Shown here in pieces: positions 3,223 through 30,367 of a stretch of 43,837 bases of DNA. The notes beneath the pieces were generated by a model. The model saw only the letters and a list, made by a program, of their open reading frames with translations. It did not search any database and was not told the origin of the DNA. Position 1 is the first letter of the stretch; the number at the start of each line of letters is the position of its first letter. The position numbers were made by a program, and so were the translations under genes. The DNA is from Nocardioidaceae bacterium (lineage in GTDB: Bacteria; Actinomycetota; Actinomycetes; Propionibacteriales; Nocardioidaceae): NCBI GenBank assembly GCA_025980475.1, contig JAICXL010000013.1, positions 1-43,837 on the forward strand, given 5' to 3'.

Positions 3223-4671
3223 ATGAGCCGCAACCCGCTGGACCTGGTCGACAGCGCGATCGGCGGGGGTGTCGAGCACCTCAACGAGTTCGTGCACCGG
3301 CGCCGGCTGCGCAAGCTCGGCCTCCTCGAGGCGATGGACCCGCCGGATGCAGGGGGCTGGGCACGGACGGCGGCCAACCCGCCCCGCCACGGCAACACGC
3401 TCGACGTCTTCATCGACGGGCAGGACGCCTTCTCCCGGATGGCGGAGGAGATGCGGAAGGCCACGTCGTACGTCCACATCGCAGGCTGGCACCTCGAGAC
3501 CGACTTCCGGCTGGCGCGGGACGAGGAGAGTACGACGCTGCTGCCCTTCCTCACCGAGCTCGCCGAGCGTGTCGAGGTGCGGGTGCTCCTGTGGGCCGGC
3601 CCCCCGCTGCCCGCCTTCCGGCCACGCCGGTCCGACATGCGAGCGGTGCGCGACCGGCTTACCCGCGGCACCCGGGTCAAGTGCGTGCTCGACTCGCGCG
3701 AGTACACCATGCACTGCCACCACGAGAAGGTCGTCGTCATCGACGGCCGGGTCGCGTTCGTCGGCGGCCTCGACCTCACCACGCTGCAGGGGGATCGCTA
3801 CGACCGCTCCGAGCACCCCCGCCGCGAGGGCATCGGCTGGCACGACGGCGCCACGATGCTGACCGGCCCGGTCGCCACCGACGTCGCCGGACACTTCCGC
3901 GCGCGTTGGCAGGAGATCGCCCACGAGCCGCTGCCGGAGCCGGAGGCGCAGCAGCCGACCGGGGGCCGGACCGTGCAGCTGGTGCGGACCGTTCCGAACA
4001 AGACCTATGACTTCCTGCCTCGGGGCGAGTTCTCGATCATGGAGAGCTACATCCGTGCGCTGCGCAGCGCCGAGCGGTTCATCTACCTGGAGAACCAGTT
4101 CCTCTGGTCCACGGAGATCGCCAACATCCTCGATGCCAAGCTGCACGACCCCCCGAGCGACGACTTCCGGGTCCTGCTGGTGCTCCCCGTGCGCCCCACC
4201 AGCGGCAAGGACACCACGCGCGGCCAGCTCGGCGGGATGATCCAGGCAGACTCCGGCGACCACCTGCTCGCGACCACGCTCCGTTCCGGAACCGGCCAGG
4301 ATTCGAAGGTGTGCTACGTGCACGCCAAGATCGGGATCGTCGACGACCGCTGGTTCACACTCGGGTCCGGGAACCTCAACGAGCACTCGCTCTTCAACGA
4401 CAGCGAGGTCAACGTCGTCTGCCACGACCCTGACCTCGCCCGGGAGACCCGGCTGCGGCTGTGGAGCGAGCACCTGAAGCAGCCCGTCCCGGAGATCGAC
4501 GGCGACCCCTGCCGGGTGATCGACGAGCAGTGGGTGCCGGTCGCGCGCGAGCAGCTGCGCCGGCACGAGCAGGGCGAGCCGGCGACGCACCGGCTCATCG
4601 CCCTTCCGGGGATCTCCCGGCGCTCCGGCCGGCTCACCGGTCCGATGCGGGGGTTGCTGGTCGACGGTTGA
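3223..4671 (+). CDS. phospholipase D-like protein with two HKD motifs
   Basis: This is a 482-residue protein. Both catalytic HxKx4D motifs are intact: H167-x-K169-x4-D174 within HHEKVVVIDGRVAFVGGLD, and H367-x-K369-x4-D374 within YVHAKIGIVDDRW, followed by GSGNLNEHSL. The two halves fold into one active site, as in phospholipase D and cardiolipin synthase. ATG 3223 follows a strong purine run (GGAAGGGAGGG), which decides the start. I see no signal peptide or membrane segment, so it is not a standard membrane-anchored cardiolipin synthase. It is more likely a cytosolic or peripheral phospholipase D acting on phospholipid head groups. It diverges from tetR and stands alone. Confidence 0.88.
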   Translation: MSRNPLDLVDSAIGGGVEHLNEFVHRRRLRKLGLLEAMDPPDAGGWARTAANPPRHGNTLDVFIDGQDAFSRMAEEMRKATSYVHIAGWHLETDFRLARDEESTTLLPFLTELAERVEVRVLLWAGPPLPAFRPRRSDMRAVRDRLTRGTRVKCVLDSREYTMHCHHEKVVVIDGRVAFVGGLDLTTLQGDRYDRSEHPRREGIGWHDGATMLTGPVATDVAGHFRARWQEIAHEPLPEPEAQQPTGGRTVQLVRTVPNKTYDFLPRGEFSIMESYIRALRSAERFIYLENQFLWSTEIANILDAKLHDPPSDDFRVLLVLPVRPTSGKDTTRGQLGGMIQADSGDHLLATTLRSGTGQDSKVCYVHAKIGIVDDRWFTLGSGNLNEHSLFNDSEVNVVCHDPDLARETRLRLWSEHLKQPVPEIDGDPCRVIDEQWVPVAREQLRRHEQGEPATHRLIALPGISRRSGRLTGPMRGLLVDG

Positions 4672-25603: not shown

Positions 25604-26656
25604 TCAACCTTGCACGCGCTTGCGCCGTCCGGTGATCCGGGTGAGCCCCATGCCACCACCGAGCAGCAGCAGAGCCGCGGCCAGCTCGGGCAGCAACCCG
25701 TCAGGCGCACCGGTGTTGGGCAGCGTCGCAGCACTCGGGGTCGCAGCGGTCGGGCTGCTCACGACAACGGCCGCGTGCGGACTCGACACGCTGCTCGAGG
25801 GCGGCGGGCCGCCGGCGTTGCCACCGGGGGTTCCCGGCGGGAGGACGTGGCCACAGTGGTGCCTCGGAGTGGGCACGCAGGCCGGCGGCGGTGAGACCGA
25901 GCCACACTCGTCCTGCGATGTGTTCGGGTTGTCCACACAGCGACCAGGCGGCGGGGGCGGCGAAGCGCACTCGTCGACAGGCGTGTTCGGGTTGTCCACA
26001 CAGCCACTCGGCGGCGGCGAGACCGTGCCGGTGGTGCAGCCGGTGTGCGCCGGGTTGCTGCGCCCGATGCCGTGGTTGGTGTCGCACTCGTAGCCCGCGT
26101 TGTGGTCCGAGCCGTTCGGGTACTGGCCCCTCGGGTTCTTGTTGTCGGCCTTGCCGACGCAGCCGGCGCACGGCTTGCCGGTCGCCTGGCCGTTGCCGTT
26201 GCCGTTCATCGACGGCGACCCGTCCCGCGTGGAGCAGTAGGGACCGCCCGGGCACTTGCCGTTGGCCCCACCGGAATTCTGGTCGGCGTTGCTCAACGGC
26301 TGGGGTGACGTGGCGTTGCCCGAGGTGCCGGCCGTGCCGGACGTGGAGTGGTCGGTGGCTGTGCCGTTCTGCGCCCCCGATTGGTCGGTGCCCGAGTGGT
26401 CGGTAGCGGCGCTGTCGTGACCGACCGCCTTGCCGCTCGGCTGCTGGGCCGGCGTGGACTGATCTGTGGACTGGCCGTGTGTCTGGCCGGATGCCTGGCC
26501 GTGTGTCTGGGCGGATGCCTGGCCGGATGCCTGGCCAGGCGCGTGACCGGACGATGCCACGGCCGGCGCGATGGCACCACCCAGCAGCAAGACCATCGCG
26601 GCACCCAGGACGACGCCCAGCACGCGAGCGTGGACGCCGTGGGAATGTCGAATCAT
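25604..26656 (-). CDS. LPXTG-anchored cell-surface protein
   Basis: This is a 350-residue exported protein. A signal peptide (hydrophobic core about residues 11-30, VLGVVLGAAMVLLLGGAIAP) ends at AVASSG. A low-complexity region rich in Gln, Ser, Gly and Thr follows, with repeats of the type GQASGQTHGQ (residues 41-62). A cysteine-containing middle has two related blocks, CVDNPNTPVDEC and CVDNPNTSQDEC, spaced by prolines. The C terminus is a sortase signal: LPNTG at about residue 312, a hydrophobic helix and a basic tail GRRKRVQG. ATG 26654-26656 follows GGGAGAG. No sortase gene is in the window. The function is unknown. Confidence 0.87.
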   Translation of the reverse strand: MIRHSHGVHARVLGVVLGAAMVLLLGGAIAPAVASSGHAPGQASGQASAQTHGQASGQTHGQSTDQSTPAQQPSGKAVGHDSAATDHSGTDQSGAQNGTATDHSTSGTAGTSGNATSPQPLSNADQNSGGANGKCPGGPYCSTRDGSPSMNGNGNGQATGKPCAGCVGKADNKNPRGQYPNGSDHNAGYECDTNHGIGRSNPAHTGCTTGTVSPPPSGCVDNPNTPVDECASPPPPPGRCVDNPNTSQDECGSVSPPPACVPTPRHHCGHVLPPGTPGGNAGGPPPSSSVSSPHAAVVVSSPTAATPSAATLPNTGAPDGLLPELAAALLLLGGGMGLTRITGRRKRVQG

Positions 26657-26772
26657 CGTGTGACTCTCCCTGCGAGGGCGGGTAGCCCCCTTCGAACCTC
26701 CCACAGCCCCGTCCCGCCGCATGCGGAGAGTGGCTGACACACCATCAACGGCGATGGCCCGAATGGGTTACT

Positions 26773-26956: not shown

Positions 26957-27022
26957 ATCCGGCGCGAAGCCCGGAGTGCCAGAGGGGCGGCTCGAGTTGC
27001 CCCTGCGCGCCATTTCGTCCTG

Positions 27023-27095
27023 CGCGCCTGGAGGGATTCGAACCCCCAACCTTCTGATCCGTAGTCAGATGCTCTATCCGTTGAGCTACAGGCGC
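27023..27095 (-). tRNA. tRNA-Arg (anticodon ACG)
   Basis: This is a 73-nt cloverleaf on the minus strand. The acceptor stem pairs GCGCCTG with CAGGCGC, the D-arm is TAGCTCAACGGATAGAGCA, the anticodon loop is CTACGGA with anticodon ACG, and the T-arm loop has GGTTCGAATCC. The discriminator is G and CCA is not fully encoded. ACG is normally edited to inosine-CG, decoding CGU, CGC and CGA. Confidence 0.95.
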
Positions 27096-27205: not shown

Positions 27206-28219
27206 GTGCGCGTGACCAGTGACTACGGGCCGGAGCAGCGGGAGCTGCTGCAGACCGTGGCCGCACGCACCTACCGCGACCTCGTCGACGCCGGGTCGCT
27301 GGCTTCCGACGACCCACGCTTCGCCGAGGACCACCCCGAGCGCGCCGCCGTGGAGCTGCTCGTCGACCTGGGCCTGCTGGCACTCGACCCGCTGCTGGAC
27401 GCCTACGTGCCAGTCGACCCGGCCACCGTCCAGTCGCGGGTGGTGGCCCCGATGGGACAGCAGGCGACCGACCTGCTGACCGAGTCGACGGCGTGGGCGA
27501 ACACCTTCGCCACGCTGGGGCAGGCCTACCGACACACGTCGCCGGGAGCCAGTCCGGTGCTCGAGCTGCGCGGCTACGCCAACATCAACCGGTTCATCCA
27601 GACCGCTGTCGGTGACGCCCAGAAGGAGCTGCTGACCGCCCAGCCGGCCGGAGCCCGGTCGGCGGCGACGCTCGACGTGGCCGTCGAGCGAGACATCCGC
27701 GCGCTCAGCCGCGGGGTCGCGATGCGCACGCTCTACCAGCACTCCGCCCGGCGCAGCACCGCCACCCGGGAGTACGTCCAGCGGGTCAGCGCCCACGGCG
27801 CGGAGGTGCGCACCCTCGACGAGTTCTTCAACCGGCTGATCGTGGTGGACCAGACGATGGCGATCGTGCCTGGGGCCGAGGGCACCCACGTCGCGGTCGC
27901 GATCCACGACCGCAGCCTGGTCGCCTACCTCGTCGACATCTTCGAGCGCTACTGGGAGCGCGCCCACGACTTCTCCGACCGCGACATCGACACCACCCGC
28001 GACATCGCCGACGACGTCCACAACATGACGGTCCGGATGCTGGTCGAGGGACACAGCGACAACGCCAGTGCCAAGCGGATGGGCGTCAGCGCGCGCACCT
28101 TCGCGGGCTACGTCGCCGCGCTGAAGGACGAGTACGGCGCGGAGACCCGCTTCCAGCTCGGCTATGCCATGGGCCAGCAGGCGGCGCGCGAGGGCCGCCG
28201 ACGCCGGGAGGCGGAATGA
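27206..28219 (+). CDS. LuxR-type HTH regulator with an N-terminal sensor domain
   Basis: This 337-residue protein probably starts at GTG 27206, with GGGG seven bases upstream; GTG 27212 is an alternative. The C-terminal LuxR/GerE HTH lies at about residues 270-330: MTVRMLVEGHSDNASAKRMG, then VSARTFAGYVAALKDEYGAE. The region before it (RDIRALSRGVAMRTLYQHSA, ...GAEVRTLDEFFNRLIVVDQT) resembles the phospholipase D-like, TrmB-type sensor fold found in many actinobacterial LuxR-family proteins, without catalytic HKD motifs. It ends at two tandem hairpins and faces a small exported peptide gene (28380-28517). A regulator that senses a ligand or peptide is plausible; the ligand is unknown. Confidence 0.82.
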   Translation: MRVTSDYGPEQRELLQTVAARTYRDLVDAGSLASDDPRFAEDHPERAAVELLVDLGLLALDPLLDAYVPVDPATVQSRVVAPMGQQATDLLTESTAWANTFATLGQAYRHTSPGASPVLELRGYANINRFIQTAVGDAQKELLTAQPAGARSAATLDVAVERDIRALSRGVAMRTLYQHSARRSTATREYVQRVSAHGAEVRTLDEFFNRLIVVDQTMAIVPGAEGTHVAVAIHDRSLVAYLVDIFERYWERAHDFSDRDIDTTRDIADDVHNMTVRMLVEGHSDNASAKRMGVSARTFAGYVAALKDEYGAETRFQLGYAMGQQAAREGRRRREAE

Positions 28220-28258
28220 GCTGAGCCAGCCGCACGATGGCCGTGCAGCTGGCTCAGC
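28220..28258 (+). terminator. long hairpin directly after the HTH regulator stop
   Basis: GCTGAGCCAGC pairs with GCTGGCTCAGC (11 bp). Inside, GCACG pairs with CGTGC around loop ATGGC, with one C-A mismatch between the two stems. It begins on the base after the TGA stop. It is a strong terminator candidate without a T run. Confidence 0.85.
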
Positions 28259-28272
28259 CCGCCCGAGATGGG

Positions 28273-28303
28273 TGAGGGCGACGAACCGAGTTCGTCGCCC
28301 TCA
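28273..28303. terminator. second, 14-bp stem hairpin between convergent regulator and peptide genes
   Basis: TGAGGGCGACGAAC, loop CGA, then GTTCGTCGCCCTCA: a perfect 14-bp stem followed by GTTTCGAG. An additional outer inverted repeat, TTTCGAGAC (28305-28313) and GTCTCGAAA (28362-28370), flanks the gap before the peptide gene stop. It can serve both convergent genes. Confidence 0.85.
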
Positions 28304-28379
28304 GTTTCGAGACGGCCGGGGGTTGGCGGAGGACGGGCGCCGGGGGGGTGGCGAGGTCCGCGTCTCGAAAGCTAAGTGG

Positions 28380-28517
28380 TCAGTCCCAGCCGGTGTCACC
28401 GTAGGAGGACGCGTGCAGCTGGGAGGCCGAAGCGGCACCGGCCGGGATGCCGCCCGCACCGACTGCGAAGCCGATGGCGAGAACAGCAGCCACCGCTGCC
28501 TTGGCGAATCTGCTCAT
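28380..28517 (-). CDS. small exported peptide precursor (45 residues), unrecognised
   Basis: The start MSRFAKAAVAAVLAIGFAVG is a complete signal peptide: a positive N-terminus, a hydrophobic core and an AxA site around residues 26-31 (AGAASA). Cleavage there leaves about 14-16 residues ending SQLHASSYGDTGWD. ATG 28515-28517 follows GAGGGG with seven-base spacing, a good ribosome site. It is convergent with the HTH regulator at 27206. I do not recognise the family. A secreted signal, a surface peptide or a non-functional short ORF are all possible. The clear ribosome site and textbook signal peptide argue for a real gene. Confidence 0.65.
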   Translation of the reverse strand: MSRFAKAAVAAVLAIGFAVGAGGIPAGAASASQLHASSYGDTGWD

Positions 28518-28679
28518 CTGCTTGCCCCTCCTCGATGATGTCCCGCTGTGTCTCAAGTGTCGCCTCTGCCCGGGTCTGCCCCAAGGGGGTGGCCGCCTCA
28601 ACAAATTGCATTGCATGTTTCTGCAAAAGCTGGGCGGGCGGCGAGGACGTCAGCGGAGGCCGAGGGACGACAGCCACCG

Positions 28680-28714: not shown

Positions 28715-28732
28715 TTTTCCCGGACTTCCGTG

Positions 28733-28822
28733 CGGAGGTGGCGGGATTTGAACCCGCGAGAGGGGATTACCCTCAACCCGCTTAGCAGGCGGGCGCCATA
28801 AACCGGACTAGGCGACACCTCC
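28733..28822 (-). tRNA. tRNA-Ser (anticodon GCT)
   Basis: This is a 90-nt type II tRNA on the minus strand. The acceptor stem pairs GGAGGTG with CACCTCC, the anticodon stem pairs CCCGC with GCGGG around CTGCTAA, there is a long variable arm, and the T-arm is GCGGGTTCAAATCCCGC. The discriminator is G. It decodes AGC and AGU. Confidence 0.96.
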
Positions 28823-30208: not shown

Positions 30209-30277
30209 GACCACCCCTCACCGTGCCCGCGGGCCGCCCCGGCGCCGCGAGCAGAAGGCTACTCCCGACGTGACCTG

Positions 30278-30367
30278 CAGAGGGGGCGGGATTCGAACCC
30301 GCGGCTGGCGTCTGAGGCCAGCGACCGCTTTCAAGGCGGTTCCGATAGGCCACTCCGGCACCCCTCC
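30278..30367 (-). tRNA. tRNA-Ser (anticodon TGA)
   Basis: This is a 90-nt type II tRNA on the minus strand. The acceptor stem pairs GGAGGGG with CCCCTCT (terminal G-U), the anticodon stem pairs ACCGC with GCGGT around CTTGAAA, the variable arm is GCTGGC...GCCAGC, and the T-arm is GCGGGTTCGAATCCCGC. The discriminator is G. It decodes UCA and, by wobble, UCG. Confidence 0.96.

Follow-up and report, generated by a model that had tools for sequence, protein, structure and literature searches.

The receptors of the RRNPP family are defined by a TPR domain that binds the peptide. In these systems, represented by Rap, Rgg, NprR, PlcR and PrgX as well as ComR, the gene of a small exported propeptide adjoins that of a cytoplasmic DNA-binding receptor (PMC10075063, PMC7564271), and intracellular peptide quorum sensing with an adjacent propeptide has been described for Firmicutes (PMC10075063). 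For the actinobacteria, a census published in 2012 considered that, the butyrolactone system of Streptomyces aside, communication had hardly been explored, and described LuxR solos that carry a C-terminal LuxR-like HTH in a phylum almost devoid of LuxI (PMC3466318); the word TrmB does not occur in this census. The actinobacterial thiovarsolin precursor VarA contains repeated cores and gives rise to thioamidated APR with YcaO/TfuA (PMC6511847), and in Streptomyces coelicolor a 655 Da peptide imported by BldK serves as an imported oligopeptide signal that has been suggested to vary between strains (PMC9640686).

Here, we describe a regulator gene and a short peptide gene that face each other in a stretch of 43,837 nucleotides of Nocardioidaceae DNA, referred to as the window. 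As in the RRNPP systems, the gene of a small propeptide, exported by the look of its sequence features, lies beside that of its presumed receptor; in contrast to them, the receptor is not a TPR protein but combines a winged HTH, a PLD-fold domain and a LuxR-like HTH, and the precursors of the family often contain many identical cores, each anchored by Asp and Trp. The pair is inferred to work like an RRNPP system, but its receptor fold sets it outside that family. With the archaeal regulators TrmB and TrmBL2 the regulator has a winged HTH, a coiled coil and a PLD-fold effector domain in common, whereas its additional C-terminal LuxR-like HTH sets it apart, as does its ligand, which appears from covariation to be a peptide, while the TrmB entry 2f5t is titled a sugar-binding domain. 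In the structural model, the regulator joins a TrmB-type sensor to a LuxR-like HTH. This C-terminal HTH, which Pfam GerE matches only in relatives, recalls that of the LuxR solos, but no AHL-binding domain was matched in the regulator by a Pfam scan at E up to 1, and the regulator has a peptide partner. No account of the pair was among the entries listed by a literature search that covered neither preprints nor most subscription papers, and a prior description is not excluded.

The regulator-peptide pair

The two genes are convergent and their stop codons are separated by 160 bp (Table 1). The regulator may start with the GTG at 27206, as given in an earlier note on this DNA, or with that at 27212, which was used for the analysis; its stop codon occupies 28217-28219. 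The same note had reported a short ORF with a strong ribosome-binding site and a signal sequence opposite an HTH gene, and this arrangement is confirmed: the precursor begins with an Ala-rich Sec-type signal sequence, export being judged from sequence features only, and ends in DTGWD (full ending SQLHASSYGDTGWD). The regulator shows no export signal. According to that note, many actinobacteria carry several paralogues of this HTH type; in the genome itself (93% complete), a single-sequence search at E up to 1 returned one regulator match, not several, and the peptide also gave a single match, at E up to 10.

One tRNA-Arg and two tRNA-Ser genes (27022-27095, 28732-28822 and 30277-30367) flank the pair. 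On the reverse strand at 25604-26740, a Ser/Gly/Pro-rich ORF of 378 aa, which matched no Pfam family, appears to be exported, carries an LPNTG-like motif near its C-terminus and looks like a wall-anchored protein.

Table 1. Features of the pair in the window, with positions counted from its first nucleotide; the 27-row alignment consists of chosen family peptides.
Feature	Position	Strand	Residues	Basis or remark
Regulator gene	27212..28219	+		TrmB-like winged HTH, long helix, PLD-fold domain, LuxR-like HTH
TrmB-like winged HTH		+	regulator 7-67	AlphaFold model, structure matches
Long helix		+	regulator 70-109	AlphaFold model
PLD-fold domain, predicted sensor	27545..27976	+	regulator 112-255	AlphaFold, Foldseek, NucT alignment
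Leu140 codon	27629..27631	+	regulator 140	covaries with core residue 2: Met where this is Ser, mostly Val/Leu/Ile where it is Thr
Asp161 codon	27692..27694	+	regulator 161	non-acidic with hydrophobic core residue 2 (Streptomyces-like genus)
LuxR/GerE-like C-terminal HTH	27983..28213	+	regulator 258-334	AlphaFold; GerE matches only in relatives
Peptide precursor, 45 aa, exported-looking	28380..28517	-		MSRFAKAAVAAVLAIGFAVGAGGIPAGAASASQLHASSYGDTGWD
D-T-G-W core	28386..28397	-	peptide 41-44	D and W invariant in 27-row alignment
Ribosome-binding site of peptide gene	28525..28533	-		GAGGAGGGG; strong Shine-Dalgarno-type site
TGCA-box, candidate operator of peptide promoter	28607..28625	-		TGCAGAAACATGCAATGCA; exact pattern match, binding inferred

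Predicted architecture of the regulator

The AlphaFold model of the regulator (mean pLDDT 87.2, pTM 0.56) places an alpha/beta PLD fold, the predicted sensor, between two HTH domains, and no TPR family was found in the protein by a Pfam scan at E up to 1. The best PDB matches listed by Foldseek were TrmBL2 (E 2e-15 over 265 columns), TrmB (2.7e-9) and the PLD nuclease Nuc (6.6e-8), and a profile match to TrmBL2 extends over residues 18-251 (E 3.7e-4). Comparison with the TrmBL2 structure yields TM-scores of 0.36-0.45 and an rmsd of 8.7, i.e. the domains match but their placing does not; because of this rmsd and the low pTM, the placing of the domains relative to each other is uncertain. A structure alignment with NucT covers 133 residues with a Z of 18.3 and an rmsd of 2.1; PDB families outside the matches listed in this comparison are not excluded.

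The phospholipase D catalytic motif HxKxxxxD is absent from the regulator in the register that we ourselves read from FFNRLIVVD, where the His is replaced by Phe206, the Lys is replaced by Arg208 and Asp213 is kept (F206-x-R208-x4-D213). Phe206 and Asp213 are invariant in 55 aligned regulator sequences, and since it is the catalytic histidine that Phe206 replaces in all of them, the modelled PLD-fold domain is probably a sensor and not an enzyme. The C-terminal HTH had been assigned to the GerE type. Pfam GerE scores above the cut-off in one paralogue (7.4e-10) and below it in two Streptomyces-type relatives (E 0.004-0.005), and fails to match the window regulator at E up to 1.

Conservation in the Nocardioidaceae

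Scanning named genome contigs with a regulator profile confirmed 144 places, the best 80 of which, all labelled Nocardioides, Marmoricola or Nocardioidaceae, were used. Candidate peptides had to be ORFs of 30-135 aa with a Shine-Dalgarno-like sequence, K/R in the first 10 residues, a hydrophobic stretch and D-x-[GSTNVQ]-W past residue 20. An ORF that passes this filter lies convergent to the regulator at a distance of up to 450 bp in 75 of the best 80 loci, none occurs in the remaining 376,871 bp of these loci farther from the regulator, and none is obtained when the motif is reversed under the same filter; a chance ORF is ruled out by these two controls. With a looser motif, the count rises to 77 of the best 80 of 144. 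The remaining three loci comprise L065 (peptide near 4146-4232) and L111, which retain DTSWG behind a signal sequence that looks broken or is short, and L043, in which no peptide was found and whose contig stops about 0.35 kb past the regulator. L057 is the sole locus of the best 80 with a DYQW peptide, and has a second TGCA-box (see below) about 643 bp past the regulator.

The core directly follows the signal sequence in many precursors and is C-terminal in others, including that of the window, and the putative peptides are conserved by their core, not by their length. In the own genus, the regulator is present in 22 of 24 genomes; in twelve listed genomes of genus g10 of the Nocardioidaceae, no regulator was found at E 1e-10. 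Other neighbouring genes are also conserved in 72 of the best 80 of 144 loci, and adjacency within this family is therefore not independent evidence for a functional pair.

The pair in a Streptomyces-like genus and in wider relatives

A class-wide search found relatives of the regulator in 159 of 394 genomes. In a Streptomyces-like genus (g31), which is taken to be Streptomyces, the peptide gene stands head to head with the regulator gene and encodes 1 to 10 copies of the core. A profile built from 18 of these peptides finds matches in 37 of 39 genomes when E up to 0.1 is allowed, with many weak matches inside long ORFs. The 30 best profile loci (L185-L214, E up to 1.6e-5), from which matches at E about 1e-5 (G220:C1:2007415 and G246:C18:37819) are left out, have the regulator head to head in 30 of 30 and [DN]-x-x-W in 30 of 30, but 17 of them had gone into the building of the profile. 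A larger draw gives profile matches (E up to 1e-5) in 218 of 295 genomes. In a further set, the regulator is found at 103 of the 104 loci that have a peptide ORF, resulting in 101 unique pairs, all of them head to head. All tetrapeptide copies of a precursor are the same in 15 of 15 multi-copy precursors from the Nocardioidaceae and 23 of 24 of the Streptomyces type (270 of 274 copy pairs), and in 88 of 92 of the further Streptomyces-type set; between precursors of one group, a mean of 1.30 of the 4 core residues differ.

Conservation beyond close relatives, which the earlier note had put forward as a test, is met by the occurrence of the peptide core in both the Nocardioidaceae and the Streptomyces-like genus. 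The outcome that would have spoken against a pair, namely HTH homologues that consistently lack the peptide gene, does not apply to the closest group; solo relatives are nevertheless common, as 33 of 70 loci of a wider class set have no nearby peptide under the ORF filter applied to the Nocardioidaceae, although L126, missed by that filter, does hold a core peptide. The plasmid regulators L182-L184 have no D-x-x-W peptide nearby. Among more distant homologues from other families, peptides with W-repeats lie beside 3 of 30, and the exported-looking ORFs in question contain GFDWG three times, SWDWPK twice and GNTWPGA four times (L289, L292, L296). A scan for repeated W-tetrapeptides found 21 small exported-looking ORFs at up to 700 bp from a regulator and none farther away; with other residues in place of W, the same scan returned four near for F, one near and three far for H, one near for C, and one far for M.

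Two features of the wider relatives deserve mention in their own right. At L145, L154, L156, L171 and L176, three or four regulator paralogues are arranged in tandem or convergently around one peptide gene. Furthermore, the Streptomyces-type peptide gene is followed by a conserved small ORF of about 104-118 aa (e.g. L139, L141, L166) that often overlaps the peptide stop by 4 bases. It resembles the start of Rieske oxygenase subunits. All 135 Streptomyces-type loci have a match to it, none of the 135 with CxH or CxxH iron-sulphur ligands, and the best 80 Nocardioidaceae loci gave no match.

A TGCA-box upstream of the peptide gene

In the Nocardioidaceae, TGCA-N6-TGCA-N-TGCA is found upstream of the peptide start in 64 of 77 peptide loci. 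In the best 80 loci it is never seen in the 250 bp that precede the regulator and has a single occurrence at any other place; the backward-read control yields no match in these loci with the strict pattern and one with a looser pattern. Streptomyces-type loci contain GGAACATGATGCA exactly in 24 of 28 cases, starting 82-102 bp before the peptide start, and of 101 new loci, each about 3.2 kb long, 95 contain CA[AG]GAACATGATGC somewhere along their length. The box is thus common to both groups despite the opposite gene order. Genome-wide, CARGAACATGATGCA occurs in 28 of 39 Streptomyces-type genomes and has no backward matches. These 39 genomes hold 26 CAGG sites, all at the pair by comparison of places, and seven CAAG sites, two at the pair and five elsewhere; the four of the five that were inspected, all but G419:C1:6105394, sit inside long ORFs. 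In the own genus the box is present in 18 of 24 genomes with 21 sites, 17 at the pair and four away from it, again without backward matches, and in the window genome 28607-28625 is the only exact match.

A regulon could not be read from the box, as few sites lie away from the pair at the stringency used, and off-pair sites were not counted as such. An extra TGCA-box at L274:1501-1519, about 120 bp upstream of an exported-looking protein of 460 aa with a putative Ig-like domain, is a possible second target in one species. No promoter has been mapped, and it is inferred that the regulator binds the TGCA-box and activates.

Covariation of the core with the regulator

Among 160 regulator columns that vary in both groups, residue 140 is the most informative on core residue 2 in each group, and residue 161 ranks third and second, respectively. 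Both residues lie inside the PLD-fold domain, and of the single domains it is this one that the distance between motifs tracks best (Spearman 0.313 and 0.410); the comparison excluded pairs that lack [DN]xxW or whose regulator match covers fewer than 280 residues. In the first Streptomyces-type set, Ser as core residue 2 is found with Met140-Asp161 (16/16), and Thr with Val140-Asp161 (5/5), while residue 161 is non-acidic wherever core residue 2 is Pro, Leu, Ile or Val (8/8). The residue rule derives from 29 pairs; the associations were recorded before new loci were fetched, and the exact scoring function was coded afterwards.

Applied to 101 further pairs, the rule assigned the residue class correctly in all 101 (Ser 45, Thr 24, hydrophobic, Pro or Phe 32). 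This further set started from 105 loci (25 new, 60 in listing order and 20 hand-picked lower down), not from all 218 matching genomes, and four were dropped: L326, where the match did not lie in an ORF, L386, whose flank had no regulator, and two duplicates. The ORF at the profile match was adopted after a looser picker had given 9 mismatches in 101, each a wrong ORF; the ORF picker was blind to the regulator residues. Because the further genomes are related to those of the first set and stem mostly from the best-scoring matches, independent changes were counted. The Streptomyces-like genus has undergone 21 class changes on a tree built without the PLD domain and 17 on a tree built without the two columns, and 20 of 20 sister contrasts agree with the code. 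All 16 independent Ser/Thr contrasts show a difference at residue 140, each time with Met on the Ser side and Val on the Thr side, while the next column differs in 13 of 16 and without direction. Similarly, 922 of 922 Ser/Thr pairs at 75-95% identity differ at residue 140, compared with none of 1143 same-class Ser or Thr pairs at 75-90% identity, although neither set consists of mutually independent pairs.

In the Nocardioidaceae the code points the same way but is looser: Met140 is present in 6 of 9 pairs with Ser and in none of the 68 with Thr. Here, Ile or Leu is paired with Glu161 (4/4) instead of a non-acidic residue, and 10 of the 68 Thr pairs have Glu161 too; the sister contrasts agree in four of six cases for Ser/Thr and in four of five for others. 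For this family alone, residue 160 ranks first of 249 columns and residue 140 second at an entropy of at least 0.2, and residue 140 ranks first of 237 at an entropy of at least 0.3. The top rank of residue 160, which adjoins 161, arises because Arg160 is kept in 77 of 77 Ser/Thr pairs and replaced in four of five others. A larger residue 140 opposite a smaller core residue, and the loss of an acid opposite a residue without hydroxyl, make physical sense, but there is no structure of a complex.

Proposed mechanism and alternative explanations

The peptide-sensing pair proposed in the earlier note has gained support beyond adjacency, from receptor-peptide covariation and from the common upstream box. 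At the level of sequence alone, the data support a regulator that recognises the core directly through its PLD-fold domain and controls the peptide gene. Action of the peptide from outside the cell is unproven, and no importer, protease or exporter is linked to the pair. We consider it likely that the two genes encode an autoregulated peptide pheromone and its intracellular receptor, with export, import, processing and the sign of regulation inferred. The precursor would leave the cell via the Sec route and, by analogy with intracellular peptide sensing, proteases would release the D-x-x-W unit, which would re-enter the cytoplasm through an oligopeptide importer encoded elsewhere; import, which is likewise inferred, would make it an imported oligopeptide signal like the BldK-imported 655 Da peptide. 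The core would then bind the PLD-fold domain, where residues 140 and 161 would recognise core residue 2, as suggested by covariation and not by a measured complex. The occupied regulator may act at the TGCA-box, which is conserved but to which binding is inferred, and would most simply be an activator, again by analogy, setting up positive feedback. Precursors with multiple copies would increase the amount of a single identical signal, and specificity would switch in receptor and signal together.

The main rival explanation is an internal feedback loop or secretion monitor, in which the regulator would bind unexported precursor and tune expression to export capacity without any signal between cells. 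Without an export signal, the regulator would meet the precursor before export and no importer would be needed, and the confinement of the box mostly or only to the peptide gene is in keeping with such a loop. However, by an argument that is itself inference, a monitor needs no repeated switching of specificity, yet 16 independent Ser/Thr contrasts and 17-21 class changes on the trees are seen in the Streptomyces-like genus, and cores are multiplied as identical copies. Since repeated matched switching is expected of a private signal, the monitor is harder to sustain, and we regard it as unlikely.

More doubtful still is a peptide with an antimicrobial or structural role, which may be a RiPP with repeated cores and which the regulator would sense as in autoinduced bacteriocins. 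The repeated cores resemble those of VarA, and one Streptomyces-type precursor weakly matches the thiovarsolin model NF033878 (E 1.3e-4), but its 22.1 bits fall below the cut-off of 35, and the window peptide has no match to this model at E up to 1. The small ORF that accompanies every Streptomyces-type peptide could be counted in favour of a RiPP, but its lack of CxH/CxxH ligands and the lack of a match to it in the best 80 Nocardioidaceae loci count against it, and no tailoring enzyme, including YcaO/TfuA, was found among the window genes scanned, a result that does not extend to the Streptomyces-type flanks. Moreover, the precursors look exported, whereas the phrase 'signal peptide' is absent from the thiovarsolin paper (PMC6511847). 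Ordinary synteny, i.e. unrelated conserved genes that are neighbours by chance, would account for the other neighbours shared within the Nocardioidaceae and remains a caveat there, but it can hardly be maintained overall and is rejected by the reversed arrangement of the same pair with the same kind of box in the Streptomyces-like genus and by the covariation of core residue 2 with residues 140 and 161, including the further-pair test.

Outlook

Beyond the proposed pheromone and receptor of the window, it seems on balance probable that the pair belongs to an undescribed and widespread family of actinobacterial pheromones, in which strain-specific D-x-x-W tetrapeptide cores, present as identical repeats in an exported precursor, are read within the cell by a histidine-less PLD-fold sensor fused to a LuxR-like HTH through a one-residue code (Ser with Met140, Thr with Val140, hydrophobic residues with loss of Asp161) that has switched repeatedly. 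If this is true, the GFDWG, SWDWPK and GNTWPGA repeats beside distant homologues would be further dialects, and peptide signalling would have gained a new receptor fold. There would also be concrete candidates for imported peptide signals in Streptomyces; we know of no sequence for the BldK-imported 655 Da peptide, and a bolder extension, which is speculation without data, would count such peptides among the oligopeptide signals, as yet unidentified, that BldK-type permeases bring into the cell. A genus of antibiotic producers would possess a peptide language whose code, down to the level of single residues, could be tested by two point changes, and regulation in that genus would become accessible to direct experiment.
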